From Ferrimicrobium sp. (GTDB lineage: Bacteria > Actinomycetota > Acidimicrobiia > Acidimicrobiales > Acidimicrobiaceae): a stretch of 64,000 nucleotides of DNA. The position numbers and the translations under genes are program-made. Position 1 is the first letter of the stretch, and every line of letters starts with the position of its first letter. The DNA is taken from positions 1 to 64,000 of the forward strand of contig NZ_DAHXOI010000003.1 in assembly GCF_027364955.1 (NCBI RefSeq). Reading direction: 5' to 3'. Below are positions 2,606 through 18,302 of this stretch, piece by piece. The notes under the pieces were generated by a model. It worked only from the letters and a program-made list of their open reading frames with translations. It did no database searches and was not told the DNA's origin.

Positions 2606-2880
2606 TCATCGTGAGCGCGGGCACAGTCGGCGACCGAGTCGCTCGGGGTTGACGATGGTGTCCAACCAGTACAGATACGAAAGGAAGGCAATGTCGCTGG
2701 GGATGTCGCCATCGTGGGCGAAGAGGAGTATCTGGTCTCGCCGCTGGTTCGCGTCCTGCTCTGGAGCGAAGCCGTGGTTGGCATTGCGCAGGAGCTGAAG
2801 GTAGAGGGCCACCGCCTCCGCGATCTGCCAATCACGGTCGTTGCCTTGCCAGTCGGGCAGTCGGACCGTCGAACCGGTAG
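2606..2880 (-). pseudogene. 3' remnant of a hypothetical gene cut by repeat R1
   Basis: A minus-strand frame ends at 2606 and carries the protein-like segments LPDWQGNDRDWQIAEAVALY and LRNANHGF, then FAHDGDIPSD and YLYWLDTIVNPERL. These resemble the C-terminal part of a widespread actinobacterial hypothetical protein that I cannot name. Reading upstream, the frame runs into a stop exactly where the 128-bp repeat R1 begins (about 2881). The gene body is therefore missing and the gene looks truncated by the repeat. The nearest internal start is GTG at 2812. Confidence 0.45.
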
Positions 2881-3009
2881 TTCGAAAGTTAACCCCTCAT
2901 ACATAGTCATGGATTAGCATCAGTGCAGCTCAGAACGGGTATGTTGATCATACATTGTCATGAATGGGCAGGGTTAATCAGGATTTCGTGACACAAAATG
3001 TGACACGGA
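2881..3009 (+). repeat. 128-bp direct repeat, copy R1 (upstream of beta-helix gene A)
   Basis: First of five same-orientation copies (R1-R5). Each starts at TTCGAA followed by TTAACCCCTCATA. It continues through a conserved GCATCAGTGCAG segment and ends with two direct GTGACAC motifs and CGG. R1 is 129 bp, the others 128 bp. R1 is the most diverged at its edges (TTCGAAAGTTAACC). Confidence 0.85.
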
Positions 3010-3140
3010 TCAAGCCCTGCTGACGATGGTGTTTTGAGAACCCACGCCTCTCTCTTCAGGCTACCGGTTGCTTGAGTGAGAACTCCGAGAGACGGGAGAA
3101 TCTTCACTCTGGGTGAGTGCATCACTTCATGGTGTGCTAG

Positions 3141-3169
3141 TTGACACCAAAGCGTCAAGAAATCTATTG
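3141..3169 (+). promoter_or_regulatory. Candidate promoter of beta-helix gene A with an internal inverted repeat
   Basis: A perfect -35 TTGACA at 3141-3146 is followed 17 bp later by a weak -10 (CTATTG, 3164-3169). The -35 lies inside TTGACACCAAAGCGTCAA (3141-3158), a TTGAC-N8-GTCAA palindrome that could be an operator. The same block is conserved upstream of paralogues B and C. The whole leader between R1 and the gene start (3010-3272) is shared. Confidence 0.5.
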
Positions 3170-3272
3170 GTGCACCTCACTTGCTGGTCTTTCCCCTGGT
3201 ATCGTGGAGATCGGTGGACACTTGGTCCCCACTGTGTCGCAGGGTTGATCCTCATGATCTTGAGGGTAGGGA

Positions 3273-5636
3273 GTGAAGAAGACAATGACTACCTCTCGAT
3301 CACGAGGGCGAAAGCTCTTTGGGTACTTGGGTCGTATTGGCGGAGGGCTTGGGTTAGCCCTTGGTCTGATGGTCGGGACTGTTACGGTTTCTCAGAGTGC
3401 CTTTGCTACCACTACGAGCACCCTGTATGCCGCGGTCACACCACAGGGAACCGGCAACTGTTCAACCACCACTGATGCTTGTTCTCTCAGTAACGCGATC
3501 AGTCAAGCTGCCTCTGGCGATACCATCGAACTCGTCACACCTGGGACTAGTGGGACCTATGGTGCCCAGATCATACCCGGCTCCTTGACCGTTACCATCG
3601 AAGCCGCGCCCGGAGTACTGGATCCAACGTTTGATGGGAATGGAACCTCAAGCATCACGGTAGATGGCTCTCTTACCCTCATTGGGGTGACGATCTCGGG
3701 CAACACCGTGAGCGCGAGCGGGACAGACGCGCCCTTAGGTGGGGGGATTGCCAACGGCGGCACTCTCACTATCAACGACTCGACGATCTCGGGCAATAGC
3801 GTGAGCGCGAGCGGGACAGGCGCGGTCGCCGAAGGCGGGGGGATTGCCAACGTCGGCACCCTCACCATCAACGACTCGACGATCTCGGGCAACACCGTGA
3901 GCGCGAGCGGGACAGCCGCGATCGCCGCAGGCGGGGGGATTGCGAACATCTTCACTGGCACTCTCACCATCAACGACTCGACGATCTCGGGCAATAGCGT
4001 GAGCGCGAGCGGGACAGGCGCGATCGCCGGAGGCGGGGGGATTGCGAACATCTCCGCTGGCACCCTCACCATCAACGACTCGACGATCTCGGGCAATAGC
4101 GTCAGCGGTCAAGGCGCGAGCGCCGGCGAGGGTGGGGGGATTGCCAACGTCGGCACCCTCACCATCAACGACTCGACGATCTCGGGCAATAGCGTGAGCG
4201 CGAGCGGGACAGCCGCGGTCGCCGAAGGCGGGGGGATTCTCAACGCTGGCACAGCCTACCTAGCCGCTGACCTACTTGCCACCCCGGGAGGAGCCCCAAG
4301 CGGCGGTGAATGTGCGGGAGGGGGTACCTTCACCGACGAAGGCTACAACGTCTCCGATGACTCAACCTGTGGGTTTAACACCTCCTCCACATCCACCAGT
4401 GTCAGTGACTCAAAGGATGCCGAAGACCTCACCTCCCTTGGTAATTACGGTGGAACCACCAAAACCATTCTCCCGACATTAGATAACCCTGCCATTGGTC
4501 TCATCCCAGCTGATAAGTCAGTCATGGTGGATGGTCAATCCGTGCAGTTGTGCCCCACCACCGATCAGAGAGGTTTCGAAATTCCTAACGGAGTGCGCTG
4601 TGATGCTGGATCCACCCAGGTTCTCACCCAGACGATCACCGGTTTTGAGGGTCCGTCACCTGCGGTCTATGGATCATCTGGGACCCTCGGGGCAAGTGGT
4701 GGAGGATCGGGTCAACCGCTCGTCTTCAGTGTCGCTTCTACAAGTGGCACCGGGGTGTGCAATGTTTCTGGTACGAATGGCTCCACGGTCACCTTTACGG
4801 GTGTCGGTAACTGCATCATCGACATCAACCAAGCGGGTGAGAATTATTATCTCCCAGCTCCTGAGGTCTCCGAGACACTGAACGTCACCCCAGCTACCCC
4901 AAGCACTCCAACGATCACCAACCTGCCAACTGGAGGAATCGTCGGGGGAGGCTTCACCGCTTCGGTGACCACCTCCGGAGACGGGACCACGTCAGTAACT
5001 GCTGGCCCAGCAAGTGTTTGTAGCGCTTCAGGCCTGGTAGTGAGCTACGTCGGAGCGGGCCAATGTCAGCTCATCGCTCATGTTTCACAAGGAGCTGGCT
5101 ACACCAGCCTCAATGGAGAAACCCAGAGCATCAACATCTCCCAGGCAACCCAAACCATCAACTTCTCCTCAACCGCTCCTACCAATGCCCAAGTGAGACA
5201 GACCTATGCCCTAGCTGCGACGAGTAGTTCGGGGTTGGTAGTAAGCTTTGCCGTCTCCCCTTCGAGTGTCTGTAGTATCTCGAGCGGAGTGGTTTCCTTC
5301 ACGGGAGCTGGTACCTGTATCGTAACCGCTAGTCAGGGAGGCAATAGCGAGTACGCCCCTGCGAGCACAACCCAGAGCGTGAATGTGGTCGCGGTTCCGG
5401 TTACGTCAACCTCCGCAACTACACCATCTTCAACCACACCATCGACCCCAGCTCCAAAGACCTCATCATCGACAACTAGTGCCCCAACCACCAAGCCTCA
5501 GTCGGTCACCATCAAGACCGGACCTCCCGTTGCACCCAGCACTACGAATCCTTTGGTCCCCATTGGTCTCGGACTCGGTGCCAGTGGGTTCCTTGGTCTC
5601 TTCGGTCTTAACCGAAAGAGGAGACGAGCGAGTTAG
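3273..5636 (+). CDS. Secreted beta-helix surface protein A with Ig-like repeats and C-terminal membrane anchor
   Basis: A predicted cell-surface protein of 787 aa, perhaps an adhesin; its ligand is unknown. GTG start with GAGG 7 nt upstream. Residues 1-45 form a signal peptide (basic N-region, hydrophobic LGLALGLMVGTVTV, cleavage after AFA). Next comes a CSLSNAISQA...GDTIEL motif typical of right-handed parallel beta-helix proteins. About six tandem rungs built on TLTINDSTISGN and GGGIAN follow (roughly residues 125-330). Then come about three 75-85 aa Ig-like modules (TINFSSTAPTNAQ..., VSFTGAGTC) and a Ser/Thr/Pro-rich stalk. The end is PLVPIGLGLGASG, a hydrophobic stretch and NRKRRRAS. No LPXTG motif is visible. 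Paralogues B and C share leader, signal peptide and C-terminus. Architecture is seen directly; an adhesin role is inferred. Confidence 0.75.
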   Translation: MKKTMTTSRSRGRKLFGYLGRIGGGLGLALGLMVGTVTVSQSAFATTTSTLYAAVTPQGTGNCSTTTDACSLSNAISQAASGDTIELVTPGTSGTYGAQIIPGSLTVTIEAAPGVLDPTFDGNGTSSITVDGSLTLIGVTISGNTVSASGTDAPLGGGIANGGTLTINDSTISGNSVSASGTGAVAEGGGIANVGTLTINDSTISGNTVSASGTAAIAAGGGIANIFTGTLTINDSTISGNSVSASGTGAIAGGGGIANISAGTLTINDSTISGNSVSGQGASAGEGGGIANVGTLTINDSTISGNSVSASGTAAVAEGGGILNAGTAYLAADLLATPGGAPSGGECAGGGTFTDEGYNVSDDSTCGFNTSSTSTSVSDSKDAEDLTSLGNYGGTTKTILPTLDNPAIGLIPADKSVMVDGQSVQLCPTTDQRGFEIPNGVRCDAGSTQVLTQTITGFEGPSPAVYGSSGTLGASGGGSGQPLVFSVASTSGTGVCNVSGTNGSTVTFTGVGNCIIDINQAGENYYLPAPEVSETLNVTPATPSTPTITNLPTGGIVGGGFTASVTTSGDGTTSVTAGPASVCSASGLVVSYVGAGQCQLIAHVSQGAGYTSLNGETQSINISQATQTINFSSTAPTNAQVRQTYALAATSSSGLVVSFAVSPSSVCSISSGVVSFTGAGTCIVTASQGGNSEYAPASTTQSVNVVAVPVTSTSATTPSSTTPSTPAPKTSSSTTSAPTTKPQSVTIKTGPPVAPSTTNPLVPIGLGLGASGFLGLFGLNRKRRRAS

Positions 5637-5678
5637 GGACTACGAGAGGCGGTTCAGATTCGAACCACTGATCCGAAG

Positions 5679-5806
5679 TTCGAATCTTAACCCCTCATAT
5701 GTAGTCATGGATTAGCATCAGTGCAGCTCAGAACGGGTATGTTCATCATACGTTATCATGAATATGCAGGCTTAGTCACAATTTCGTGACACAAAACGTG
5801 ACACGG
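5679..5806 (+). repeat. 128-bp direct repeat, copy R2 (between genes A and B)
   Basis: This copy is nearly identical to R3. It is preceded by GATTCGAAC-N12-GTTCGAATC (5658-5687), a 9-bp inverted repeat whose right arm overlaps the repeat start. That hairpin could end transcription of gene A, although no T-run follows. The final part holds CGTGACAC twice, 12 bp apart. Confidence 0.9.
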
Positions 5807-5938
5807 ATCAAGCCCTGTTGCCGATTGTGTTTTGAGAACCTACGCCTCTCTCTTCAGGCTACCGGTTGCTTGGGTGAGAACTCCAAGAGACGGGAGAATC
5901 GTCACTCTGGGTGGGCGCATGACGCGATGGTGTGTTAC

Positions 5939-5967
5939 TTGACACCAAAGCGTCAAGAAACTTATTG
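5939..5967 (+). promoter_or_regulatory. Candidate promoter of beta-helix gene B
   Basis: TTGACA at 5939-5944 is followed after 17 bp by TTATTG (5962-5967). The TTGAC-N8-GTCAA palindrome is conserved. The whole stretch 5807-6070 is a copy of the leader upstream of gene A. Confidence 0.5.
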
Positions 5968-6070
5968 GTGTAGCCCACTTGGTGGTCTTTTCCCTGGTAG
6001 CTTAGAGATCGGTGGACAATTGGTCCTCACTGTGTCGCAGGGTTGATCCTCATGATCTTGAGGGTAGGGA

Positions 6071-8452
6071 GTGAAGAAGACAATGACTACCTCTCGATCA
6101 CGAGGGCGAAAGCTCTTTGGGTACTTGGGCCGTATTGGTGGAGGACTTGGGTTAGCCCTTGGCCTCATGGTTGGGACCGTTACGGTTTCACAACATGCCT
6201 TTGCTACCACCACGAGTACCTTGTATGCCTCTCTCACACAGGGAACCGGCAACTGTTCAACCATCACTGATGCTTGTTCTCTGAGCACTGCGATCAGTCA
6301 AGCTGCCTCTGGCGACACCATCGAACTCGTCACACCTGGGACTAGTGGGACCTATGGCGCCCAGACCATACGGAAATCTTTGACCGTTACCATCGAGGCC
6401 GCGCCCGGAGTTGTGGATCCCACGATTGATGGGCAGGGAATCTCAAGTATCACAGTTGATACCTCTGCAAAGCTTACCCTCATTGGGGTGACGATCTCGG
6501 GCAATAGCTGGACCGCGCAATCCGGCAAGAGTGCCGCCGGTGGGGGGATTTTCAACGGCGGCACCGTCACCATCTATGACTCGACGATCTCGGGCAATAG
6601 CGTGAACACGACCGGGGGAGGTGTGGTCGCCGACGGCGGGGGGATTTACAACTACGACGGCACCGTCACCATCAGTGACTCGACGATCTCGGGCAATAGC
6701 GTGAGCGCGAAATTCGGCGGGGATGCCGACGGTGGGGGGATTTACAACAACGACGGCACCGTCAACATCAGTGACTCGACGATCTCGGGCAATAGCGTGA
6801 GCGCGAAATCCGGCGGGGATGCCGACGGTGGGGGGATTTACAACAGCGACACACTCAGCCTCACCGCTGATCTACTCGCAAATCCCTCTGGCGCTTGTGC
6901 TCTTGGAAAGGTCCGCACCGATCAGTACGTGTTTACGAGCAACAGCTCATGCGATCCCAAGGGATCTACTGATTACCAATCACCGAGTGTTGGAACTGAC
7001 CTTCGCAACATCAAGGTTAACGGTGTGCTCGAGATGGTGAAACCTATCGCTGATAACCCCGCCATCGGTGCCATCAAAACCTCGACGGGCCTCTGCCCCC
7101 CAGCCGATCAGCGTGGTTATGTTCCGGTCTCGGGTGCAAAAACTTGTGATGTAGGTGCCTATCAAACGAGTTATGTTGCCCCAGCAATCACGTTCTCACC
7201 ACCCTCGACTGCGGTGGCCGGCACCTCTGATAGCCTCAGTGCGACTTCGACGTCTCCCCTTCCCGTCACGTTCTTAGTACGTGGGACTTCGGCAAGTGTG
7301 TGCTCGATCACGGGCACGACGGTGTCCTTTCACACCAACGGCACCTGTACGATCGAGGCGAGCCAAGCTGGAGGGATGGATCAGGGTTATCATTACGCTC
7401 CCGCGAGCTCAACCCAGAGCATCAGTGTTTCTGAAGCAACCCAGACGTTAACCCAAACCATCACCTTCTCCTCAACCGCTCCTACCAATGCCCAAGTGGG
7501 ACAGACCTACACCCCGGTTGCAAAGAGTAGCTCGGGGTTGGCTGTAAGCTTTGGCGTCTCTCCTGGAAATGTCTGTAGCATCTCAGGCGGAGTAGTCTCC
7601 TTCACGGGAGCTGGTACATGTACCGTAACCGCTAGTCAGGGAGGCAATAGCGAGTATGGTCCCGCGAGCACAACCCAGAACATCAACGTCTCCCAGGCAA
7701 CCCAAACCATCACCTTCTCCTCAACCGCTCCTACCAATGCCCAAGTGGGACAGACCTACACCCCGGTTGCAAGGAGTAGCTCGGGGTTGGCTGTAAGCTT
7801 TGGCGTCTCTCCTGGAAATGTCTGTAGCATCTCGAGCGGAGTAGTCTCCTTCACGGGAGCTGGTACCTGTACCGTAACCGCTAGTCAGGGAGGCAATAGC
7901 GAGTACGCTCCCGCGAGCACAACCCAGAACATCAACGTCTCCCAGGCAACCCAGACCATCACCTTCTCCTCAACCGCTCCTACCAATGCCCAAGTGGGAC
8001 AGACCTACACTCCAGCTGCGACGAGTAGCTCGGGACTAGCTGTAAGCTTTGCTGTCTCCCCTGGAAATGTCTGTAGTATCTCGAGCGGAGTGGTCTCCTT
8101 CACGGGAGCTGGTACCTGTACCGTAACCGCTAGTCAGGGAGGCAGTGGCGAGTATGGTCCTGCGAGCACAACCCAGAGCGTGAATGTGGTCGCAGTTCCG
8201 GTTACGTCAACTACCTCAACCACGCCATCTTCCACAAAGCCATCTTCAACTACACCATCGACCCCAGCTCCGAAGACCTCATCATCGACAACCAGTGCCC
8301 CAACCACCAAGCCTCAGTCGGTCACGATCAAGACTGGACCTCCCGTTGCTCCCCGTACCACGACACCCTTGGTCCCCATTGGTGTCGGGCTCGGTGCCAG
8401 TGGAGTCCTTGGTATCTTCGGTCTTAACCGAAAGAGGAGACGAGCGAGTTAG
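6071..8452 (+). CDS. Secreted beta-helix surface protein B with tandem Ig-like repeats
   Basis: A 793-aa paralogue of A with the same GTG start, signal peptide (cleavage after AFA), CSL...GDTIEL entry motif and C-terminal PLVPIGVGLGASG-hydrophobic-NRKRRRAS tail. The beta-helix part is shorter, with about four rungs (TISDSTISGNSVSA, GGGIYN). The Ig-like part is longer: one diverged module, then three nearly identical 83-residue modules (TITFSSTAPTNAQVGQTYTP...). At DNA level these are 249-bp tandem repeats starting near 7457, 7706 and 7955. A Thr/Ser/Pro-rich stalk precedes the anchor. The near identity of the repeats points to recent expansion or gene conversion. Likely an exported, membrane- or wall-attached protein; function unknown. 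Confidence 0.75.
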   Translation: MKKTMTTSRSRGRKLFGYLGRIGGGLGLALGLMVGTVTVSQHAFATTTSTLYASLTQGTGNCSTITDACSLSTAISQAASGDTIELVTPGTSGTYGAQTIRKSLTVTIEAAPGVVDPTIDGQGISSITVDTSAKLTLIGVTISGNSWTAQSGKSAAGGGIFNGGTVTIYDSTISGNSVNTTGGGVVADGGGIYNYDGTVTISDSTISGNSVSAKFGGDADGGGIYNNDGTVNISDSTISGNSVSAKSGGDADGGGIYNSDTLSLTADLLANPSGACALGKVRTDQYVFTSNSSCDPKGSTDYQSPSVGTDLRNIKVNGVLEMVKPIADNPAIGAIKTSTGLCPPADQRGYVPVSGAKTCDVGAYQTSYVAPAITFSPPSTAVAGTSDSLSATSTSPLPVTFLVRGTSASVCSITGTTVSFHTNGTCTIEASQAGGMDQGYHYAPASSTQSISVSEATQTLTQTITFSSTAPTNAQVGQTYTPVAKSSSGLAVSFGVSPGNVCSISGGVVSFTGAGTCTVTASQGGNSEYGPASTTQNINVSQATQTITFSSTAPTNAQVGQTYTPVARSSSGLAVSFGVSPGNVCSISSGVVSFTGAGTCTVTASQGGNSEYAPASTTQNINVSQATQTITFSSTAPTNAQVGQTYTPAATSSSGLAVSFAVSPGNVCSISSGVVSFTGAGTCTVTASQGGSGEYGPASTTQSVNVVAVPVTSTTSTTPSSTKPSSTTPSTPAPKTSSSTTSAPTTKPQSVTIKTGPPVAPRTTTPLVPIGVGLGASGVLGIFGLNRKRRRAS

Positions 8453-8494
8453 GGGCTACGAGAGGTAGTTCAGATCCGAACCGCTGATCCGAAG

Positions 8495-8622
8495 TTCGAA
8501 TCTTAACCCCTCATTTGTAGTCATGGATTATCATCAGTGCAGGTCAGAACGGGTATGTTCATCATACGTTATCATGAATAAGCAGGCTTAGTCACAATTT
8601 CGTGACACAAAACGTGACACGG
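8495..8622 (+). repeat. 128-bp direct repeat, copy R3 (after gene B)
   Basis: Same orientation and length as R2, again overlapping the right arm of a TCCGAAC/GTTCGAA-type inverted repeat. After R3 the sequence does not continue into the shared leader. It continues into DNA that is related only to the sequence after R5. Confidence 0.9.
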
Positions 8623-9110
8623 TTCTCGCCGTTGTAACCTATAAACCGCTGGCGCATCCATGACTCTAGCTGGTCCACAGACTCGGATCCAGTCGCTACC
8701 CTGTGGCTGAGTCATGTTTGGGATGAACAGTTAGCCAAAGCTACCATTAGGCACCTGTCAACGAGATTGCGACCGACTCAATCTTCTTCAACTTCGAAGG
8801 AAGCACTATTCTTAATTGGAACTAGAGGCATCGTCGGAAACGCCGCAAGCCAAGCATCGAGGATCTATTCCCGATTTGCGTCCGAGCAGTCAGCTGCGCG
8901 ACCGGCTGAATGGGTAAGCGGGTTTCAGTGTCTCATTTGGTGAGTAAGTTCATGCAGCCGCAAGCGTCGTACGGCCATCACCTTGCGGCACTTGATGGGC
9001 ACCCCTTCATGGGTCATCCGGATGGGATATTGGGGCGGCCCGTCCAACCTCTGATAAAGCTGGCGGTCCCAGCCGGTCAGCGCAGTCTGGATGACTGCAG
9101 CGGCAGGGCT
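8623..9110. other. Gene-poor stretch with blocks shared with the region after R5
   Basis: I see no convincing gene. The first 65 bp (GCCGTTG...CATGACTCTAG) match the DNA right after R5 (16992-17057). A second block, GTAAGCGggTTtCAGTGTC...TTTGGTGAG (about 8911-8952), matches 17431-17471. The material between these blocks differs. Confidence 0.5.
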
Positions 9111-9374
9111 TCAGTAGTACTGGACCAAGCAAAACTCGTGGCCTTCGGGATCGGCCATCACGACGACGTCTAAATGAATACGGACCTTGCCCCTCTTCGG
9201 CTCGGGTACAGGCTGGAACACCAGACGCGGCGGGGGGTCGCCCCGCTCCCCCAAGTACACCCAGCCGCTTTGAGAAGGCCTAGGTTGACGTTGGAGCAGG
9301 GCACTCCAAAACTTCGCCACCCGCCCCTCGGGGTCAAGACAGTCGATGGTCACGCCGGACCAGATGTTCGGCAC
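9111..9374 (-). pseudogene. VOC/glyoxalase-like protein with internal deletion
   Basis: An 87-aa frame opens like a glyoxalase-like (VOC) domain protein: IWSGVTIDCLDPEGRVAKFW, GWVYLGERGDPPPRLVFQPV and KVRIHLDV. It then jumps directly to VVMADPEGHEFCLVQ, the usual C-terminal strand with the metal-ligand Glu. In the family about 30-35 residues normally lie between these two parts. The gene therefore carries an in-frame internal deletion that removes part of the second beta-alpha-beta unit. The fold is probably broken, so I call it a pseudogene, although the frame is intact. It is GC-rich like the divergent neighbour at 9521. Confidence 0.65.
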
Positions 9375-9520
9375 TGACGTTCAGCCTATGACGAGAACTC
9401 GCCCGGGCCCGCCCCGCCCCTAACGACGGCAGCCCCCAGGTATCGCCAATCGCCGGCCGAAGGTCACTTATCGGGTAGTCTGACTTGGGCAAGTACGGTC
9501 TTGCACCGTGGAGGGATCCT

Positions 9521-10135
9521 GTGGCTGATCGTGACCGCCGAAGCTCGTTGGTCGATTCGTATGAGAACGCTGCAGTGATCATCTCGGCGATAAATGCTGA
9601 GCAACTCGGCCATCCGACGCCGTGCCCCGAATACGACGTGGCCAGACTGATCGACCACCTCGTCGACGCCGGCTACCGGGCAGCTGCTCTCGGTCGGGGA
9701 CAGACACCACCATCGGGAGACGAGTCGCCTCACATCGAGCTCAGCGACGCTCCGGGCCAGATGCGGCGCGCCGCCAAAGAGGCGACAAAGGCATGGGCCG
9801 ACGACTCTGCCATGTCATCCAAGTTCACCATGCCCTGGGGCGAGGAGTACAGCGGGGCGACCCTGGTGGACATGTACCTGGCCGAGTTAGCCGCACACAC
9901 ATGGGATCTAGCCCGAGCGACCGGACAGCTCGACAGGTTGGATCCTTCCCTCGCCCGGCCGGCACTCGGCGGTGCGCAAGCCATGATCAAACCCCACTAC
10001 CGCAACATGGTCGCGCCAGGGGCTCCCTTCGGGTCGGAAGTGGCGCCACCTCCCGACGCCGACGATTGGGAGCGCCTTGCTGCCTTCATGGGTCGCGACC
10101 CCCGAGCACAGCTCGACAAGGATCCGTCCACTTGA
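9521..10135 (+). CDS. DinB/mycothiol-dependent maleylpyruvate isomerase-like protein (TIGR03086 type)
   Basis: A 204-aa protein of the DinB/MDMPI-N superfamily. These are four-helix bundles that bind a metal and often use or modify thiols such as mycothiol in Actinobacteria. The N-terminal motif HPTPCPEYDVARLIDHLVDAG is diagnostic. A second conserved helix reads MYLAELAAHTWDLARATGQ and contains the metal-binding His. I prefer the GTG at 9521 because GGAGG lies 6 nt upstream; an in-frame ATG at 9485 has no ribosome binding site. The gene is more GC-rich than the GntR operon that follows. Substrate unknown. Confidence 0.75.
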   Translation: MADRDRRSSLVDSYENAAVIISAINAEQLGHPTPCPEYDVARLIDHLVDAGYRAAALGRGQTPPSGDESPHIELSDAPGQMRRAAKEATKAWADDSAMSSKFTMPWGEEYSGATLVDMYLAELAAHTWDLARATGQLDRLDPSLARPALGGAQAMIKPHYRNMVAPGAPFGSEVAPPPDADDWERLAAFMGRDPRAQLDKDPST

Positions 10136-10423
10136 TCGACGGATCCCGTAACGCCGGTAGTTGGGGCCAGGTAGCTTCAAGGCTACGCCCACTATCGCAA
10201 GGCGTTCGTGTCCCGTATCGTGAGTAGTTGCAGAACGACCCTACATGTGTTTAAGGTGAGCCCTGCTCTTGCTCTCATTGGAATCAGTGTACATGGATCG
10301 GGAGCGCCGACTTCGAAGGCACTCTCGGCGTCACGAAGCGATGCGTTTTGCGGTCGTGAACTCGTCGAACGAGTCACACGAGAACTGCGCAGAGATATTC
10401 CTTGGTTAAATTACAGCCCTGCA
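10136..10423. other. Intergenic region without a recognisable gene
   Basis: The stretch between the DinB-like gene and the GntR promoter contains only short frames without family features. I see no RNA gene or repeat. Confidence 0.4.
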
Positions 10424-10473
10424 TTGACAGATGCGCGCCGCTAGTGCTATAGTTACCTACGTTACTAGATAAC
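10424..10473 (+). promoter_or_regulatory. Promoter and palindromic operator of the GntR-ABC operon
   Basis: TTGACA (10424-10429) and TATAGT (10448-10453) are separated by 18 bp. Overlapping and following the -10 is an imperfect palindrome (10452-10473): GTTACCTACG then TTACTAGATAAC, with symmetric GTTA/TAAC ends and CTA/TAG inner arms. The position fits autorepression by the downstream YtrA-type GntR regulator. Confidence 0.65.
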
Positions 10474-10487
10474 CATGGAGATGTACT

Positions 10488-10880
10488 GTGATAGAGTTCC
10501 ACCTCGATAAACGCTCGGCCGTCCCACCATACCAACAAGTCGTTCAACAGGTTCGCCATGCTCTGCGACTCGGTCTGCTAGAAGTCGGTGACCAACTACC
10601 TACCCTGAAAGAAGTCGTCGCGAGTCTCGCGATCAATCCAAACACGGTGCTCAAGGCCTATAAGGAGCTAGAAAACCTTGGACTCGTTGCCGCCCGGCCT
10701 GGGATTGGTGTGTTCGTGACAAAGACACTCGGCGAGGAGTCCCTCGTTGCTCTCGGTCCACTACGTCAGAGTCTCCAACGGTGGATGATCGAGGCTCGGC
10801 AGGCAGGTCTTGACGACGAAAGCATCGATGCGCTCTACCAGGAGTGCCTTCGCTCTCTCTCCGCGAGGGACGTAGCGTGA
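10488..10880 (+). CDS. GntR-family (YtrA subfamily) transcriptional regulator
   Basis: A 130-aa repressor with an N-terminal winged helix (PPYQQVVQQVRHALRLGLLEVGDQLPTLKEV, then LAINPNTVLKAYKELENLGLV) and only a short C-terminal dimerisation helix. This is the pattern of the YtrA subfamily, which usually controls an adjacent ABC transporter. GTG start with GGAG 9 nt upstream. The stop overlaps the start of the ABC ATPase gene by 4 bp (GTGA), so the genes are translationally coupled. The palindrome at 10452-10473 is the likely operator. Confidence 0.9.
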   Translation: MIEFHLDKRSAVPPYQQVVQQVRHALRLGLLEVGDQLPTLKEVVASLAINPNTVLKAYKELENLGLVAARPGIGVFVTKTLGEESLVALGPLRQSLQRWMIEARQAGLDDESIDALYQECLRSLSARDVA

Positions 10881-11767
10881 CTGCTGTCTTGGAGGCACGG
10901 GACCTCGGCAAGCGATACGGCAACAAGTGCGCGCTCTCGGAGTGCACGGTGGACATCCCTGCTGGCAAAGTTGTAGGTCTTGTTGGTCCGAACGGCGCTG
11001 GCAAGAGTACGCTGCTTCAGTTGTGTGTCGGTCTCTTGCAGCCGGACTCTGGATCCATTAGCGTCCTCGGTGGTCGCCCTGGAACAACACCTGAGCAACT
11101 CTCGCGCGTGGGATTCGTCGCCCAGGACACCCCGACTTACGCCGGACTGTCGATCCGAGATCACCTCCGACTCGGCGCATGGATGAACCGTAACTGGGAC
11201 TTGATCCTTGCTCAAGAGCGAATCGAAGCACTGGGACTTGACCCTCGGCAAAGAGTGGGCAGGCTCTCAGGGGGCCAGCGTGCACAACTCGCTCTCACTC
11301 TTGCCGTCGCCAAGCGCCCAGAGCTGCTTGTGCTCGACGAACCCGTCGCAAATCTTGATCCTCTCGCGCGGCGCGAGTTCCTCCAAGGACTGATGGAGGT
11401 CGTCGCTGACAACGGGACAAGTGTCATTCTCTCCTCACACCTCGTGGCCGATTTGGAGCGAGTCTGTGACTACCTTGTTGTGCTCGTTGACTCGCGTGTT
11501 CAAGTTGCGGGAGATATTGACGAACTGTTGAACACCCATTTTCGACTGACGGGTCCTCGTCATGACAGCGACAAGTTGCCCCAAGACCAGCGACTCATCA
11601 GCGAGAGTCACACCGACAAGCAGAGCACTCTGGTCGTGCGGACCAGCGAGCCTGTTCTTGATCCGTCATGGTCGGTTGAACAGCTAGACCTTGAAGACCT
11701 TGTGCTCACCTACATGGCCCATGCGAGTGCACAACGCCGTCGACCGAAGCTCGAGGTCCGCTCGTGA
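10877..11767 (+). CDS. ABC transporter ATP-binding protein
   Basis: A 296-aa ABC ATPase with Walker A GPNGAGKST, signature LSGGQ, Walker B LLVLDEP and switch His (SSHLV). The C-terminal 80 residues are diverged. I chose the GTG at 10877, which overlaps the GntR stop. A longer reading from 10844 would run inside the regulator gene. The order regulator-ATPase-permease matches YtrA-type operons for exporting or sensing peptides and antibiotics. The substrate cannot be read from the sequence. Confidence 0.9.
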   Translation: MTAVLEARDLGKRYGNKCALSECTVDIPAGKVVGLVGPNGAGKSTLLQLCVGLLQPDSGSISVLGGRPGTTPEQLSRVGFVAQDTPTYAGLSIRDHLRLGAWMNRNWDLILAQERIEALGLDPRQRVGRLSGGQRAQLALTLAVAKRPELLVLDEPVANLDPLARREFLQGLMEVVADNGTSVILSSHLVADLERVCDYLVVLVDSRVQVAGDIDELLNTHFRLTGPRHDSDKLPQDQRLISESHTDKQSTLVVRTSEPVLDPSWSVEQLDLEDLVLTYMAHASAQRRRPKLEVRS

Positions 11768-12843
11768 TCCGGGTAGCGCTCCGTCAATTTCGCACCGAAG
11801 GGATTGTCGGCGCGGTACTGCTGGTCTTGTTTGCGATCGTGCTTGCTATCACGGGTCCTCACCTCGTGCACGTCTATGACGCCTTTGAGAAATCTTGTAG
11901 AGCTGCCAGAGACTGTGCCACGACTCCGAACCCGGTCATTGGTGTCGATAGCTCGCTACAGAGTGCATTACCACTCATCGTGACCGCTGTACCGGCGCTT
12001 CTCGGCATCTTCTTTGGTGCGCCACTCATTGCTCGAGAACTTGAGACCGGGACTTATCGACTCGCTTGGACCCAGAGCATAACGCGAAAGCATTGGCTCA
12101 TAACAAAGCTCGGGATTGTCGGCGTGGCTTCCATGGTGTTTGCCGGACTGCTCACATGGATGACCAACTGGTGGGCGAGCCCGGTCAATGCCGTGACCCA
12201 AAATCGATTTGGCGTTGCCAACTTTGGCACCAACGGCATCGTGCCGATCGGATACGCGGCATTCGCCTTCGCACTCGGGGTAACGGCGGGTGTGCTTTTG
12301 CGAAGGACGGTACCGGCAATGGCAGTAACGGTCGCGGGGTTCATAGCGGCACGCCTCGCCGTTACCTTCTGGATTCGTCCCTACCTCGCATCGCCCGTAC
12401 ACAAATCCTTCCATCTTGATGCCGGGTCCGGTCCTGGCTTTGCCTTAGGCACCTCTCAAGGAACTCTTAACTTCAATGCTGTTATCCACAACGGTGTCAC
12501 ACCAAAGGTGGGTGCGGTCGTTCTCACGCCTCCCCAGGTAACGATCCCGAACGCGTGGGTTTACTCAACGTCGGTCGCAGATAAGGCGGGGCATGCCCCA
12601 TCGAGCCAGTACCTCTTTAAAGCCTGCCCCGTGCTCAAACAGCTGTCAAACCCAGGAACAGCTACCCCTACCCGGCTTCAGGACTGCCTCAACAAGCTCT
12701 CTTTGACCTTCCACGCTGTTGCCGCCTACCAGCCGGCGAGTCGATTCTGGCCGTTCCAGTGGGCCGAAATGGGGATCTACCTTGTGGCTGCGGTAGCACT
12801 ATGCGGAGTCACCTACTGGTGGCTGCGACGTAAGTACGCGTGA
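11764..12843 (+). CDS. ABC-2-type transporter permease
   Basis: A 359-aa integral membrane protein. It starts with a hydrophobic segment (IVGAVLLVLFAIVLAI), then an extracytoplasmic loop with two Cys (SCRAARDC). A PLIARELETGTYRLAWTQS segment, characteristic of ABC-2 permeases, is followed by further membrane spans and a final span before LRRKYA. GTG start overlapping the ATPase stop by 4 bp. A long external domain with a second Cys pair precedes the last span. Works with the ATPase encoded just upstream. Confidence 0.85.
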   Translation: MIRVALRQFRTEGIVGAVLLVLFAIVLAITGPHLVHVYDAFEKSCRAARDCATTPNPVIGVDSSLQSALPLIVTAVPALLGIFFGAPLIARELETGTYRLAWTQSITRKHWLITKLGIVGVASMVFAGLLTWMTNWWASPVNAVTQNRFGVANFGTNGIVPIGYAAFAFALGVTAGVLLRRTVPAMAVTVAGFIAARLAVTFWIRPYLASPVHKSFHLDAGSGPGFALGTSQGTLNFNAVIHNGVTPKVGAVVLTPPQVTIPNAWVYSTSVADKAGHAPSSQYLFKACPVLKQLSNPGTATPTRLQDCLNKLSLTFHAVAAYQPASRFWPFQWAEMGIYLVAAVALCGVTYWWLRRKYA

Positions 12844-13369
12844 TTGAGAGTTCTCTGTGGCAGCACTTGGTTGACGCACGCTAACCCTGTATTCGCACTT
12901 CAGAGTGCTATGGTGCTCGAAGGGTAGTGTAGGGTTTACATCGCTCAGGGTCAGAAAATGTCGGTCAAAATGTCGGTCAGATCCCGTGGAACTTAGGGTC
13001 GTTGCGGCGACGGGCGAGGCCCTGTGACCTTCGAAAACTTCCCAGAGGTTTGGTACTCCTCTCCCTTCGTGAAGCGTACCCCTTCTCTCAACCACTGCGC
13101 GAACCACTTCCCATCGACTACATGGGTCGCAAAGGCAATCATGGCGGCCTCGGCCCCGTCACCGCTTGGGGGATCTCGGTCAAACTACCTGCCTCGTAGC
13201 GCAACAGACATGAAACTTGCCATTCGGGCTCTCGCGAACCAAGTTGGTGTCAACTTGAATCCGCCCATAGAACCCAAGTAACGCGTGGAAACCTATGGTT
13301 CACAATACACAGCGAATCGATTTCGGCCCAACGTTGGCACACTCCCGTGGGGCCACTTGCATCTTCGGT
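12844..13369. other. Intergenic stretch with a tandem AAAATGTCGGTC repeat
   Basis: A 12-bp unit AAAATGTCGGTC is repeated exactly twice (12955-12966, 12967-12978) in an arrangement reminiscent of insertion-sequence ends. A small plus frame (13024-13281, 85 aa) shows no family features, and I do not call it a gene. Nothing else is recognisable. Confidence 0.4.
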
Positions 13370-13795
13370 TTAGTCAATGCCTACCAGACGAGACTGACAA
13401 CCCTGGCATCGCAATGCCACACAACCGTCGTTTCGATGGTTAGCCGGGATATTTGTCCAGTTCAGAGTGGGCGGAATAGGAGAGATGGCTCGCAACTGGA
13501 CGAGCAACCCGTCGACTAGTTTGCGGGCGTGCTTTAGACGGCGAATCGCAGCCTTGATGGCGACTTGGACTCGCGTCTCCTGGTTGAGTGTCTTCGCGTC
13601 CAAATCGTAAGGAGCGTCTTGCTCATAACCCGATTCCACAAACACGGTGGTGAACGCATTATGCGACAGGCAACTTCCTCCGACGAAAGATTTGCCCATT
13701 GCGGTGCCGATTTCATCACTGACGGGATACTGTGACACCGAACCAGTGTATCGCAGGAGACGTGGTTCGAATCTTAACCTCTCATATGTAGTCAT
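13370..13795 (-). CDS. Hypothetical protein whose start lies in repeat R4
   Basis: A 141-aa minus-strand frame with a protein-like central part (FTTVFVESGYEQDAPYDL, then ETRVQVAIKAAIRRLKHARK and LVDGLLVQLRAI) that could form helices. Its ATG and first ten codons (MTTYERLRFE) come from the edge of the 128-bp repeat R4. The native N-terminus may therefore have been replaced when the repeat arrived. No family recognised. It may be a remnant rather than a functional gene. Confidence 0.35.
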   Translation of the reverse strand: MTTYERLRFEPRLLRYTGSVSQYPVSDEIGTAMGKSFVGGSCLSHNAFTTVFVESGYEQDAPYDLDAKTLNQETRVQVAIKAAIRRLKHARKLVDGLLVQLRAISPIPPTLNWTNIPANHRNDGCVALRCQGCQSRLVGID

Positions 13796-13893
13796 GCGTT
13801 AGCATCAGTGCAGGTCAGAGAGGGTGAGTTTATCATAGGTTGTCATGAATATGCATGGTTACTCATAATTTCGTGACACAAAACGTGACACGG
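13766..13893 (+). repeat. 128-bp direct repeat, copy R4 (upstream of gene C)
   Basis: Same orientation as R1-R3. It is followed by the shared leader (13894-14149) and gene C. The copy reads CTCTCATATG and GCGTTAGCATCAG where R2 has CCCTCATATG and GGATTAGCATCAG. Confidence 0.9.
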
Positions 13894-14025
13894 ATCGAGC
13901 CGTGTTGACGATTGTGTTTTGAGAACCTACGCCTCGCTCTTCAGGCTAACGGGTAGGTGGAGAAGAACCCTCAGAGACGGGAGAATCTTCACTCTGGGTG
14001 GGCGCATGACATGATGGTGTGCTAG

Positions 14026-14049
14026 TTGACAGCAAAGCGTCAAGAAATC
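14026..14049 (+). promoter_or_regulatory. Candidate promoter/operator of beta-helix gene C
   Basis: TTGACA at 14026-14031 lies inside the conserved TTGACAGCAAAGCGTCAA palindrome. The -10 position is weaker than in A and B (near CTGTCG), so this copy may be poorly transcribed. Confidence 0.4.
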
Positions 14050-14149
14050 TGTCGGTGGGACTCACTTGGTGGTCTTTTCCCTGGTAGCGTAGGGATAGTT
14101 GGTCCGCACTGTGTCGCAGGGATGATCCTCATGATCTTGAGGGTAGGGA

Positions 14150-16834
14150 GTGAAGAAGACAATGACTACCTCTCGATCACGAGGGCGAAAGCTCTTTAGG
14201 TACTTGGGTCGTATTGGTGGAGGACTTGGGTTAGCCCTTGGCCTCATGGTTGGGACCGTTACGGTTTCTCAAAGTGCCTTTGCTACTACGAGTACCTTGT
14301 ATGCTGCGCTCACACCACAGGGAACGGGGAACTGTTCAGCAACCACTGATGCTTGTTCCCTCAGTACCGCGATCAACAAAGCTGCCTCTGGCGATACCAT
14401 CGAACTCGTCACACCTGGGACTAGTGGCACCTATGGTGCCCAGACCATACGGAAATCCTTGACCGTTACCATCGAGGCCGCGCCGGGTGTAGCGGATCCA
14501 ACGATTGATGGGCAGGGAACTTCAAGCATCAAAGTTCATGGTTCTGCCAACCTTACCCTCATTGGGGTGACGATCTCGGGCAATAGCGTGACAGTGAGCG
14601 CACTAGGAGGAACTGCCGACGGTGGGGGGATTCTCAACGCTGGCACCCTCACTATCGACGACTCAACGATCTCGGGCAATACGGCGAGCTTGACGGGCGG
14701 AGGAGGATACGCCTACGGTGGGGGGATTTACAACTCCGGGAACGTTACTATCGATGACTCAACAATCTCGAGCAATACCGCGAGTGTGAGCGAAGGATAC
14801 GCCTACGGTGGGGGGATTTACAACTCCGGGAACGTTACTATCCATGACTCAACGATCTCGGGCAATAAAGCGACAGCTAGCGATTTGTACGCCTACGGTG
14901 GGGGGATTTACAACAAGTCCGGGACCGTTACTATCCATGACTCAACGATCTCGGGTAATACGGCGACAGTGAGCGCACTAGGAGGCACCGCAGGAGAAGT
15001 CTTCGGTGGGGGGATTTACAACAAGTCCGGGACTGTTGCTATCGACGACTCAACGATCTCGGGTAATACGGCGACAGTGAGCGGACTAGGAGGCGCCGCA
15101 GGTGGGGGGATTTACAACAACTCTGGGACCGTTACTATCGATGACTCAACGATCTCGAGCAATAGCGCGAGTGAGCTAGGTGGGGGGATTTACAACAACT
15201 CTGGGACCGTTACTATCGATGACTCAACGATCTCGAGCAATGCGGCGACAGCGAGCGAAGGATTCCCCGGTGGTGGGGGGATTTACAACAACTCTGGGAC
15301 CGTTACTATCGATGACTCAACGATCTCGAACAACACTGCCACAACGAGCGGACAAGGAATCGCCCAGGGTGGGGGGATTTACAACAACTCTGGGACCGTT
15401 ACTATCGATGACTCAACGATCTCGGGCAATACGGCGAGTGCGAGCGAAGGAGTCGCTCTAGGTGCGGAGATATACAACTCCGATACCCTTGACCTCACCG
15501 GGGATCTCATCGCAACTCCGAACAACCCAGGAGGTGCCTGCTCCCTAGGAACTGACGTGGCTGAGTATTATATAGTGACCGGTAACAACTCCTGTGATTC
15601 ACGGGCCTCTAGTACTGTACTTTCTGCGAGTGCCGGCAGTGACCTGGAAGACGTTGGGTTACTAATTGAACCCACTGCTAACAGTCCAGCTATCGGAGCC
15701 ATACCGGTGTCGACGCACCTGTGTCCTCCATCTGATCAGCGTGGCTATGTTATGGACTCTGGTGCTGCTAGTTGTGATGCTGGTTCCTTTCAGGCAAGCT
15801 ATGTTCAGCCCACAATCACGTTCTCGTTGTCCTCGTCAGCGCTAGTAGGTGGTACTGCTGACACCTCGGCTACTTCAACCTCTCCTGTTCCGGTAACCTT
15901 TTCTATCACTCAGGGTTCAATAAGTGTATGCTCCATCACTGGCACTACGGTATCTTTCAATGGGGCTGGCACCTGTACCGTCACGGCTAGTGACCGAGGG
16001 GGGATGCATCAGGATTACTACTACGCCCCTGCTCCTTCCGTGACTCAGAGCATCAGTGTTTCTCAAGCAACCCAGACGTTAACCCAAACCATCACCTTCT
16101 CCTCTACCGCTCCTACCAATGCCCAAGTGGGACAGACCTACACCCCAGCTGCGACGAGTAGTTCGGGCCTAACTGTAAGCTTTGCCGTCTCCCCAGCGAG
16201 TGTCTGTAGCATCTCAAGCGGAGTAGTCTCCTTCACGGGAGCTGGTACCTGCAGTGTGACCGCTAGTCAGGGAGGCAATAGCAAGTACGCCCCTGCTCCT
16301 TCCGTGACTCAGAGCATCAGTGTTTCTCAAGCAACCCAGACGTTAACCCAAACCATCACCTTCTCCTCTACCGCTCCTACCAATGCCCAAGTGGGACAGA
16401 CCTACACCCCAGCTGCGGCGAGTAGTTCGGGGTTGGTAGTAAGCTTTGCCGTCTCCCCAGCGAGTGTCTGTAGCATCTCAAGCGGAGTGGTCTCCTTCAC
16501 GGGAGTTGGCACCTGTACCGTAACCGCTAGTCAGGGAGGCAATAGCAAGTACGCCCCTGCGAGCACCACCCAGAGCGTGAACGTAGTCGCGGTTCCGGTT
16601 ACGTCAACCTCCTCAACTACACCATCTTCAACCACATCATCGACCCCAGCTCCAAAGACCTCATCATCGACAACTAGTACTCCAACCACCAAGCCTCAGT
16701 CGGTCACCATCAAGACGGGACCTCCTTCTGCACCCAGTACGACGACTCCTTTGGTCCCTATTGGTCTTGGACTCGGTGCCAGTGGAGTCCTAGGCCTCTT
16801 TGGTCTCAACCGAAAGAGGAGACGGGCGAGTTAG
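14150..16834 (+). CDS. Secreted beta-helix surface protein C, longest paralogue
   Basis: An 894-aa paralogue of A and B. Signal peptide with cleavage after AFA, then STLYAALTPQGTGNC and CSLSTAINKA...GDTIEL. About eleven beta-helix rungs of variable length follow (GTVTIDDSTISSN, GGGIYNNSG), encoded by near-identical DNA units between about 14560 and 15470. Three Ig-like modules come next, two of them close copies (TITFSSTAPTNAQVGQTYTP), then a Ser/Thr/Pro-rich stalk and the invariant PLVPIGLGLGASG...NRKRRRAS tail. Same GTG start context as A and B. The varying rung number between paralogues is what slippage or recombination between repeats would produce. An exported surface role is inferred. 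Confidence 0.75.
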   Translation: MKKTMTTSRSRGRKLFRYLGRIGGGLGLALGLMVGTVTVSQSAFATTSTLYAALTPQGTGNCSATTDACSLSTAINKAASGDTIELVTPGTSGTYGAQTIRKSLTVTIEAAPGVADPTIDGQGTSSIKVHGSANLTLIGVTISGNSVTVSALGGTADGGGILNAGTLTIDDSTISGNTASLTGGGGYAYGGGIYNSGNVTIDDSTISSNTASVSEGYAYGGGIYNSGNVTIHDSTISGNKATASDLYAYGGGIYNKSGTVTIHDSTISGNTATVSALGGTAGEVFGGGIYNKSGTVAIDDSTISGNTATVSGLGGAAGGGIYNNSGTVTIDDSTISSNSASELGGGIYNNSGTVTIDDSTISSNAATASEGFPGGGGIYNNSGTVTIDDSTISNNTATTSGQGIAQGGGIYNNSGTVTIDDSTISGNTASASEGVALGAEIYNSDTLDLTGDLIATPNNPGGACSLGTDVAEYYIVTGNNSCDSRASSTVLSASAGSDLEDVGLLIEPTANSPAIGAIPVSTHLCPPSDQRGYVMDSGAASCDAGSFQASYVQPTITFSLSSSALVGGTADTSATSTSPVPVTFSITQGSISVCSITGTTVSFNGAGTCTVTASDRGGMHQDYYYAPAPSVTQSISVSQATQTLTQTITFSSTAPTNAQVGQTYTPAATSSSGLTVSFAVSPASVCSISSGVVSFTGAGTCSVTASQGGNSKYAPAPSVTQSISVSQATQTLTQTITFSSTAPTNAQVGQTYTPAAASSSGLVVSFAVSPASVCSISSGVVSFTGVGTCTVTASQGGNSKYAPASTTQSVNVVAVPVTSTSSTTPSSTTSSTPAPKTSSSTTSTPTTKPQSVTIKTGPPSAPSTTTPLVPIGLGLGASGVLGLFGLNRKRRRAS

Positions 16835-16863
16835 GGGCCACGAGAGGTAGTTCAGATCCGAAG

Positions 16864-16991
16864 TTCGAATCCTAACCCATCATACATACTCATGCGTTAG
16901 CATCAGTGCAGGTCAAAGAGGGTGTGTTCATCATACGTTGTCATGAATATGCAGGCTTAGTCACGATTTCGTGACACAAAATGTGACACGG
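16864..16991 (+). repeat. 128-bp direct repeat, copy R5 (after gene C)
   Basis: Last copy of the series. It shares GCGTTAGCATCAGTGCAGGTC with R4, so R4 and R5 look like a pair. It is not followed by the leader but by DNA related to that after R3. Confidence 0.9.
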
Positions 16992-17091
16992 ATTGTGCCG
17001 TTGGGACCCATGAAACACTGGTGTGTCCATGACTCTAGTTGGTCCGTTGGGGTTGGTCGCAAGTGCGATTGTCCTCTGAAATACGCAGTAG

Positions 17092-17870: not shown

Positions 17871-18302
17871 ATGGCTACCTACGATGAAACGGTGCAAGAC
17901 AAGACAACCCAAGAGGTGACGGTCCCACCCAAGGCAACAAGACGGGTACTCTCCCCGAGCTACAAGGCGAGGATTTTGAAGGAGTACGATGCTTGTCCTC
18001 AGGGAGGAAAGGGTGAGCTGTTGCGACGAGAGGGACTCTTCTCGTCCCAGATTACCGAATGGCGTCGGGTGATTGACCAACAGAGTGCAGAGGCGCTCTC
18101 TAGAAAGCGTGGACCAAAGGCCAATCCCTTGCGAGCTCGGGTCAGAGAGCTCGAACACGAGAATGAGAGACTTCGTTCTGAGCTGGAGAAGTCTCGGAGG
18201 GTCATTGAAGTTCAGGGAAAATTATCGGTGCTTCTAGAAGAGCTCTCACGGGGAAGCGCCGAGGATCAAAGAGAGCAAACGCAGCCATTGTCGAGGGAGT
18301 AG
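17871..18302 (+). CDS. IS3-family transposase OrfA
   Basis: A 143-aa IS3-family helix-turn-helix subunit. An N-terminal extension is followed by SPSYKARILKEYDACPQGGKGELLRREGLFSSQITEWR. The leucine-zipper-like coiled coil is RARVRELEHENERLRSELEK. It binds the IS ends and, as a frameshift fusion with OrfB, forms the transposase. OrfB is open in the -1 frame relative to OrfA, and a G_GGA_AAA heptamer lies at 18215-18221. The IS ends could not be defined from this copy alone. Confidence 0.85.
   Translation: MATYDETVQDKTTQEVTVPPKATRRVLSPSYKARILKEYDACPQGGKGELLRREGLFSSQITEWRRVIDQQSAEALSRKRGPKANPLRARVRELEHENERLRSELEKSRRVIEVQGKLSVLLEELSRGSAEDQREQTQPLSRE
18215..18221 (+). promoter_or_regulatory. Programmed -1 frameshift heptamer between OrfA and OrfB
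   Basis: The sequence GGGAAAA is framed as G_GGA_AAA in the OrfA reading frame, i.e. the canonical X_XXY_YYZ slippery form. The OrfB frame is blocked by a TGA at 18206-18208 but open from 18209 onward, so slippage here gives a fusion of about 473 aa. Confidence 0.6.

Follow-up and report, generated by a model that had tools for sequence, protein, structure and literature searches.

What kind of sequence can set one gene after another between copies of itself? The question is raised by a stretch of 64,000 nucleotides from Ferrimicrobium sp. (assembly GCF_027364955.1, contig NZ_DAHXOI010000003.1, positions 1 to 64,000; hereafter the window), in which five copies of a repeat of about 127 bp, here called R, bound genes for large, repeat-rich proteins. 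An earlier note on this DNA had taken the repeat for one of no recognised system and the genes for an exchangeable surface-antigen array, whereas we find the repeat recognisable: judged by its sequence relationships, R is very probably the distal attachment arm (P' arm), together with the crossover core, of tyrosine-integrase elements that insert at the anticodon loops of tRNA-Arg and tRNA-Gln genes. We read R in this way because tRNA halves lie at its edges, because a motif pair at its right end recurs at the junction of a tRNA gene with an integrase gene, and because a second element, built around the integrase P0005, repeats the geometry. In what follows, G000 denotes the present genome (3,078,341 bases in 84 contigs), other G numbers are family genomes, and C numbers are contigs, which belong to G000 where no G prefix is given.

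The repeat and its distribution

The five copies of about 127 bp, all in one orientation as first described, were located by a sequence model from 2883-3009 through 16865-16992. Each ends in two copies of GTGACA, the predicted arm-binding sites of the integrase (arm pair).

2883..3009, + strand: R1, putative attachment-arm repeat; arm pair 2988-3005; no tRNA remnant in the left flank (227/2000 shuffles)
5680..5807, + strand: R2; arm pair 5786-5803
8496..8623, + strand: R3; arm pair 8602-8619; right flank not a leader, similar to the right flank of R5
13767..13894, + strand: R4; arm pair 13873-13890; an extra single GTGACA at 13732 in the left flank
16865..16992, + strand: R5; arm pair 16971-16988

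The model uses sequence only and was built from 17 copies, R1 to R5 and 12 others, all of which match it by construction; against it R1 to R5 score 108.6-114.1 bits. Chance is ruled out for the window repeat because a search with R2 recovers its four companions in the window at E 5e-40 to 8e-54. The copies had been called identical, but their pairwise identity is only 82.7-96.1%, R2 and R3 being the closest pair. The two motifs lie 106 and 118 bases from the start of R in the window copies and 105 and 117 in R1. R3 and R5 can be aligned over 181 bases from the start of R, about 53 of them past R, and share a separate 118-base patch.

Nine copies of R were found in the present genome by BLASTN, which detected R in four of 42 family genomes; the model, under strict filters, gave 40 matches in nine of the 42. 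Thirty-five of these are strong (E < 1e-8) and fall in eight genomes, namely six of the seven genomes of the genus and, outside it, G003 and G024, and the remaining five are weak (E 1.9e-4 to 0.005) and include the sole match in the seventh genus genome, G016. As the earlier note had it, R bounds R-headed modules, and both searches place it elsewhere in the present genome and in the genus. Two exact patterns of R searched in viral contigs gave 0 matches each.

tRNA halves at the left edge

The left edge could be seen in 35 of the 40 matches (left out were C54:3717, G015:C51, G015:C27, C16:5224 and G016:C28), and in eight of these it abuts the 3' half of a tRNA gene, on the opposite strand, cut at the anticodon loop. 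Four of the halves are tRNA-Arg (C54, G017:C47, G015:C7 and G018:C12, found by BLAST) and four are tRNA-Gln(TTG) (G015:C20, G015:C8, G017:C85 and G018:C16); intact tRNA-Gln genes were named by ARAGORN at six places. The abutment has an alignment slack of 1-2 bases, rising to 13 in the two copies from G018, whose model match sets in late. One of the weak matches, G015:C8, looks real because it stands flush against its tRNA-Gln half.

Traces of the same core are found away from tRNA genes. In 20 copies (seven tRNA cases and two truncated copies were left out of this comparison), at least 8 of 9 core bases are kept at the edge in seven, a level that no control window further left reaches, and at least 7 of 9 in nine, against 5% of control windows; three of the seven are R2, R3 and R5, which are of common descent. 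In the window itself, the tails that precede R2 and R3 resemble the 3' half of tRNA-Arg(TCG) (coordinates are given below with the genes), and no tRNA-half resemblance was found left of R1 and R4 (227 and 1334 of 2000 shuffles).

The integrase and the motif pair

On contig C16 an intact tRNA-Arg(ACG) gene (27747-27822) is followed by the integrase gene P0004 (27891-29063), whose start lies 68 bases past the tRNA. The protein matches the Phage_integrase and SAM-like models, with Arm-DNA-bind_4 below cut-off, and its four best-scoring homologues (86, 65, 50 and 50%) all adjoin tRNA-Arg; eight more distant homologues were checked, of which four have a tRNA gene of some kind nearby and four have none. 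Among 17 named records that hold an integrase relative, 14 carry titles of actinobacterial metagenome-assembled genomes. Partial copies of P0004 also stand beside tRNA-Gln halves, in G017:C85 (68%, truncated) and in C11 (66%, two stops).

The right end of R is the pair GTGACA-N6-GTGACA, which recurs with N5 spacing at tRNA-Arg/integrase junctions. In the present genome GTGACA-N5/6-GTGACA has nine matches, against 0 for the reversed control, and these are R1-R6, the tRNA-Arg/P0004 junction (C16:27881-27897) and two other places; across the genus there are 33, against five for the control, which sorting by hand divides into 20 in R, three at tRNA-Arg/integrase junctions and ten elsewhere. The three junctions, all outside R (G000, G017:C69 and G018:C35), belong to all three of the full-length integrases of at least 65%; the pair is not exact in the truncated G017:C85. 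Because the motif was picked by eye from R and junction sequences, and because the R matches share descent, the count speaks for rarity of the pair outside these places and should not be taken as having found the junctions independently. The junction pair overlaps the first codons of the listed integrase open reading frame (ORF), and a later ATG (MAKG or MPKG), common to the five compared sequences, may be the true start.

A second element as internal control

C16 also carries a 5.6-kb element that runs from tRNA-Arg(TCG) at 18121-18194 to a half at 12563-12622 (L032:12563-18194) and holds the integrase P0005 and a protein of 956 aa related to the surface proteins; the listed P0005 ORF overlaps the tRNA, and an internal start was assumed. 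The motif GTTGGGTT was chosen by eye. This 51.9-kb contig has it 11 times, both strands counted, and just two close pairs occur among these sites: 18044/18056, near the integrase, and 12748/12759, at 126 and 137 bases inward of the far half. The attachment-arm reading gains support because this element has the same geometry with different letters and a different integrase. A pair similar to GTTGGGTT lies inside a tRNA half in G015:C57.

Elements that carry R

From the tRNA-Arg(ACG) gene, C16 continues with the integrase, a TrwC relaxase, an HKD/Snf2-like helicase, a type III restriction-modification pair, an IS110-type transposase, Hachiman HamB/HamA, a truncated R7 and, at the contig end, the C-terminal part of a gene that we call D. 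Contig C54 begins inside a gene of the surface-protein family, followed by its leader, R6 and a tRNA-Arg(ACG) half, of which 60 bases are identical to C16, at least 14 of them beyond the tRNA; past the half, after a glycosyltransferase, comes a further R match. From these sequences, the two contigs appear to belong to a single integrative element that carries a relaxase and ends in the module R7-D-R6; the assembly gap would fall in the repeats of D. The TrwC, helicase, type III restriction-modification and Hachiman HamAB cargo is found at L033:639-11054 and L054:11301-19956.

In G015:C7 an intact tRNA-Arg(ACG) gene and a half (43/44 bases, abutting R) lie 16 kb apart, with three R copies that delimit two modules, the first carrying alcohol dehydrogenases, an MIP channel and a two-component system, the second an IclR regulator, a CoA-transferase, an HMGL-like gene and a transporter. 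No match to the P0004 or P0005 integrase was found inside this element, the lone P0005 match being the tRNA gene that the P0005 frame overlaps; transposase-like remnants are seen by eye near the tRNA. An intact tRNA gene with a displaced fragment in the same orientation is present in G015:C7 and in the tRNA-Arg(TCG) element of C16, is seen in C16/C54 only across the contig gap, and is absent from the window.

What weighs against the attachment-arm reading

Several results run counter to this identification of R. The window has no tRNA gene and no listed integrase, and at the right ends of its modules a second-arm pair is lacking, the only trace being the single GTGACA left of R4; a clear core is absent from 13 of the 20 copies away from tRNAs. 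R and the integrase do not always travel together: R is present in G015 and G019, where the best P0004 homologue reaches only 33% and 42%; it was not found under strict filters in G014 and G005, which carry a 51% integrase, nor within 9.3 kb around the broken C11 integrase; and beside the truncated 68% integrase of G017:C85, R is present and the exact motif pair is absent. At the nearest tRNA half of G017:C69, whose integrase is 86% identical, no R was found even with filters off; by eye this half is of the ACG type and the intact gene beside the integrase is TCG, a mismatch that may reflect rearrangement of the element. The C16-C54 join crosses an assembly gap within gene D. Finally, at least some R copies are old and static, because their flanks, compared by eye, look conserved between species (C22 with G019:C53, C16:11020 with G019:C82, and G017:C101 with G020:C149). 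We give the tRNA-Gln evidence and the negatives added with it roughly equal weight, and our confidence in the attachment-arm reading stays the same.

Genes of the window array

The array consists of four R-bounded modules, here named A, B, ABC and C, and is closed by R5; the R3-R4 interval, which the earlier note had missed, is a fourth module with different cargo.

3010..3272, + strand: leader of module A, 263 bp; 89.7, 85.5 and 87.1% identity to the B, C and D leaders
3273..5636, + strand: gene A, 787 aa; choice_anch_Q (NCBIfam) 29.1 bits, cut-off 25
5637..5679, + strand: tail of A, core CTGATCCGAAGT; similar to tRNA-Arg(TCG) 3' half, 0/2000 shuffles
5808..6070, + strand: leader of module B, 263 bp
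6071..8452, + strand: gene B, 793 aa, paralogue
8453..8495, + strand: tail of B, core CTGATCCGAAGT; similar to tRNA-Arg(TCG) 3' half, 0/2000 shuffles
9485..12843, + strand: R3-R4 module cargo, four genes
9485-10135, + strand: TIGR03086/MDMPI_N protein, R3-R4 module
10488-10880, + strand: GntR-like regulator, R3-R4 module; matches below cut-offs
10844-11767, + strand: ABC ATPase, R3-R4 module
11764-12843, + strand: ABC-2 permease, R3-R4 module
13895..14149, + strand: leader of module C, 255 bp
14150..16834, + strand: gene C, 894 aa; Beta_helix E 1e-13, Chlam_PMP E 1.3e-6
16835..16864, + strand: tail of C, 10-base core GATCCGAAGT; 14/2000 shuffles
17871..19291, + strand: IS3-type transposase ORFs, right of R5

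The unit of repeat, leader and gene proposed earlier is seen after R1, R2 and R4, with leaders of 263, 263 and 255 bp, and is lacking at R3 and R5, which have no leader; in modules A, B and C the next R begins 30-43 bases past the stop codon. The three proteins are paralogous as had been supposed, though C alone reaches the Pfam cut-off for Beta_helix, A and B giving no Pfam match at E 0.01. By eye, A has a signal-like N-terminus, repeats, Ig-like repeats and a C-terminal hydrophobic stretch followed by RKRRRAS, and the sequences of A, B and C suggest repeat-rich proteins that are probably exported. Tandem Ig-like repeat copies with 94% matches occupy 7450-8177 in B (249 bp) and 16022-16560 in C (264 bp), and repeats of this kind may have caused the assembly break inside gene D.

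Beyond this, the idea of an antigen array finds no support. No sign of switching was seen: A, B and C are each a complete ORF with its own leader and a similar C-terminal anchor, the R copies have diverged by up to 17%, and the layout of antigenic variation, one expression site with silent incomplete cassettes, is not that of the window array. Nor is R tied to surface proteins, since the relatives' loci that were scanned show metabolic, transport or defence-type cargo in or beside R; R and the protein-C gene family are not coextensive, because relatives of protein C occur in only three of the seven genus genomes at E 1e-12.

How the array may have formed

The sequence itself shows three things: halves of tRNA genes at the edges of R, a motif pair that R shares with the integrase region, and modules bordered by R. 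What we infer is how the protein contacts the DNA, in which order the events took place, that modules can be mobilized and that C16 joins C54. Integrase-bearing elements would target tRNA-Arg and tRNA-Gln genes and enter them at the anticodon loop, the left edge of R serving as the crossover core, and the window array would be a string of element-end modules, each headed by R. One such end module would be a surface-protein gene with its leader, of which a further copy appears to end the relaxase-bearing element at tRNA-Arg(ACG). The array most likely came about through repeated integration at cores, followed by decay of the integrase-bearing parts, and through duplication or exchange between R copies, whether by the integrase or by homologous recombination. 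We are less certain of the route of growth (integrase acting on cores, homologous exchange, or both), and each would give borders at R.

The closest competitor concerns this last step. Homologous recombination may have been the sole later process, an R-gene-R unit being amplified and spread by RecA-type exchange between R copies, with no action of the integrase after the first insertion, which is compatible with R as an attachment arm. It is a genuine possibility, though we lean against it: the R, leader, N-terminus and tail of A to D are 82.7-93.1% alike, and exchange inside R would likewise put borders at R, but recombination alone does not account for the tRNA halves, the integrase-side motif or the unrelated cargo.

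A stronger form of the attachment-arm reading, which we think unlikely, would be an active cassette system, integron-like with a tRNA-type attachment arm, in which the integrase excises R-leader-gene-tail modules and inserts them at the core of other R copies. The modules have the expected outline, in that A, B and C (likewise D, should C16 and C54 be rightly joined) begin at core-R with the next R just past the stop, the cargo between R copies varies among loci, and the genome holds a full-length integrase gene. Set against this are the divergence of R copies, up to 17%, the poor recombination between two attL-like sites in known systems, the score of P0004 as an integron integrase (55.3 bits, with a cut-off of 265) and the lack of an attC-like fold in R: three copies folded on both strands gave z from +0.56 to -2.25, with ends unpaired, and R was rejected as attC. 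A small hairpin at the GTGACAC pair does recur in the DNA folds of R. That an integron-like capture system evolved from an integrative mobilizable element, its arrays growing away from tRNA genes, seems to us similarly doubtful.

R is most improbably an ordinary conserved promoter or regulatory region of surface-protein genes, since, for all that it lies upstream of A, B, C, D and the gene at C16:6631, no such gene directly follows R3 or R5, the relatives' R stands beside other genes at the scanned loci, and nothing above shuffles came out of a promoter scan over 2880-6080, a stretch that takes in only module A and the R2 leader. An independent small transposable element, like a miniature inverted-repeat transposable element, would suit the dispersal, length of about 127 bp and sharp edges of R, and can be dismissed almost entirely: inverted repeats around R1, R2, R4 and R5 fail to bracket R (the 15-base pair at R2 spans the left edge, and the R1 region has none), tRNA halves occur at one edge only, and orientation is the same within arrays. 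R as an RNA element was rejected, Rfam on window 1-30000 returning only group II intron pieces within 1402-2019.

Comparison with known systems

With R as an attachment arm, the array is best read as a variant of integrative-element accretion and modular islands and not as a special antigen-switching system. According to the Islander paper (PMC4383910), tRNA-gene islands comprise a tRNA gene, a displaced 3' fragment and a tyrosine integrase beside the intact tRNA, with an anticodon-loop crossover class; tRNA gene, 3' fragment, integrase and anticodon-loop crossover are what the present elements appear to share with such islands and with integrative mobilizable elements, whereas the window array lacks both tRNA gene and integrase and keeps tRNA-like vestiges only where genes A and B run out into their tails. 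In tandem accretion and in cis-mobilizable elements (CIMEs), as outlined in PMC5704250, decayed elements are stacked at attachment sites after integrase loss, and the stacked decayed element ends are alike; here, one arm of about 127 bp recurs without a second arm, bounding one-gene modules away from the target tRNA. The attL and attR without integrase that mark a CIME were not found, each border of the window modules having one arm, R.

In the pathogenicity island PAISt of Streptomyces turgidiscabies, as described in PMC4057263, three direct att copies with an 8-bp palindrome delimit modules of 105 and 569 kb; it has a tyrosine integrase, circles were detected and the authors liken it to integron cassette capture. 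The likeness lies in direct att copies that split an island into modules and in the tyrosine integrase; the differences lie in the size of those modules, the palindrome and the detected circles, the present analysis being computational throughout.

Integron cassette arrays hold genes between same-orientation repeats, with one site heading each unit, and the window array shares both traits. It is not an integron by two features, integrase type and attC fold: the two integrases scanned score 55.3 bits (P0004) and 29.5 bits (P0005) with TIGR02249 against its cut-off of 265, and R lacks an attC-like fold; the gene modules, moreover, are about 2.8 kb and more and have their own leader. In the titles and opening parts of abstracts listed for accretion, anticodon-loop islands, tycheposons, arm-type sites and integron-like arrays, R is not described, and no paper was found on Ferrimicrobium with genomic island and integrase.

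The reading gives an unrecognised repeat a concrete identity. It suggests that tRNA-targeting elements can leave behind, at their ends, boundaries open to reuse that parcel out genes one by one, in the window those for large repeat-rich proteins and elsewhere transporters, metabolic operons or defence-type genes; if the modules still move, they would represent an independent route to cassette arrays outside integrons. Arm-motif pairs such as GTGACA and GTTGGGTT suggest a simple matching of orphan attachment sites to integrases.

Neighbouring loci and further observations

To the right of the array, G017 is syntenic with the window from 19614 on and G019 from 19622 on, and G017 has in addition a 39-base match at window 19368. 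No R was found at this edge in the fetched stretches of G017 (only 5 kb left of the edge) and G019, so that the fixed copy number in all strains named earlier as a sign of ordinary conserved sequence does not hold overall; by eye, some positions look kept between species.

R also stands next to RloB/AAA-type genes, an amidase gene that accompanies the truncated integrase, and an ornithine cyclodeaminase-like gene. In G017 an AAA ATPase and RloB-like pair (L042:1911-3886; AbiLi/AbiLii by PADLOC) adjoins a tRNA-Arg half and R. At C11:81988-82048 (L231:4989-5049) a tRNA-Gln(TTG) half lies 67 bases from the broken P0004-like integrase, and the two are the remains of a further element. The genes for tRNA-Arg(ACG), tRNA-Ser(CGA) and tRNA-Arg(TCG) keep their order in G000:C16, G015:C7, G017:C69 and G018:C35, and in each of these four loci an integrase stands outside at least one Arg gene, which makes this a two-sided insertion hot spot.

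At the left end of the window, an RsgA-like GTPase gene (58-1287) lies at the contig start, in a kilobase of 70% G+C against 52-60% across most of the window. Between it and R1, group II intron pieces (1402-2019, - strand; two models above gathering score) are probably a remnant, no long ORF being listed there on that strand.

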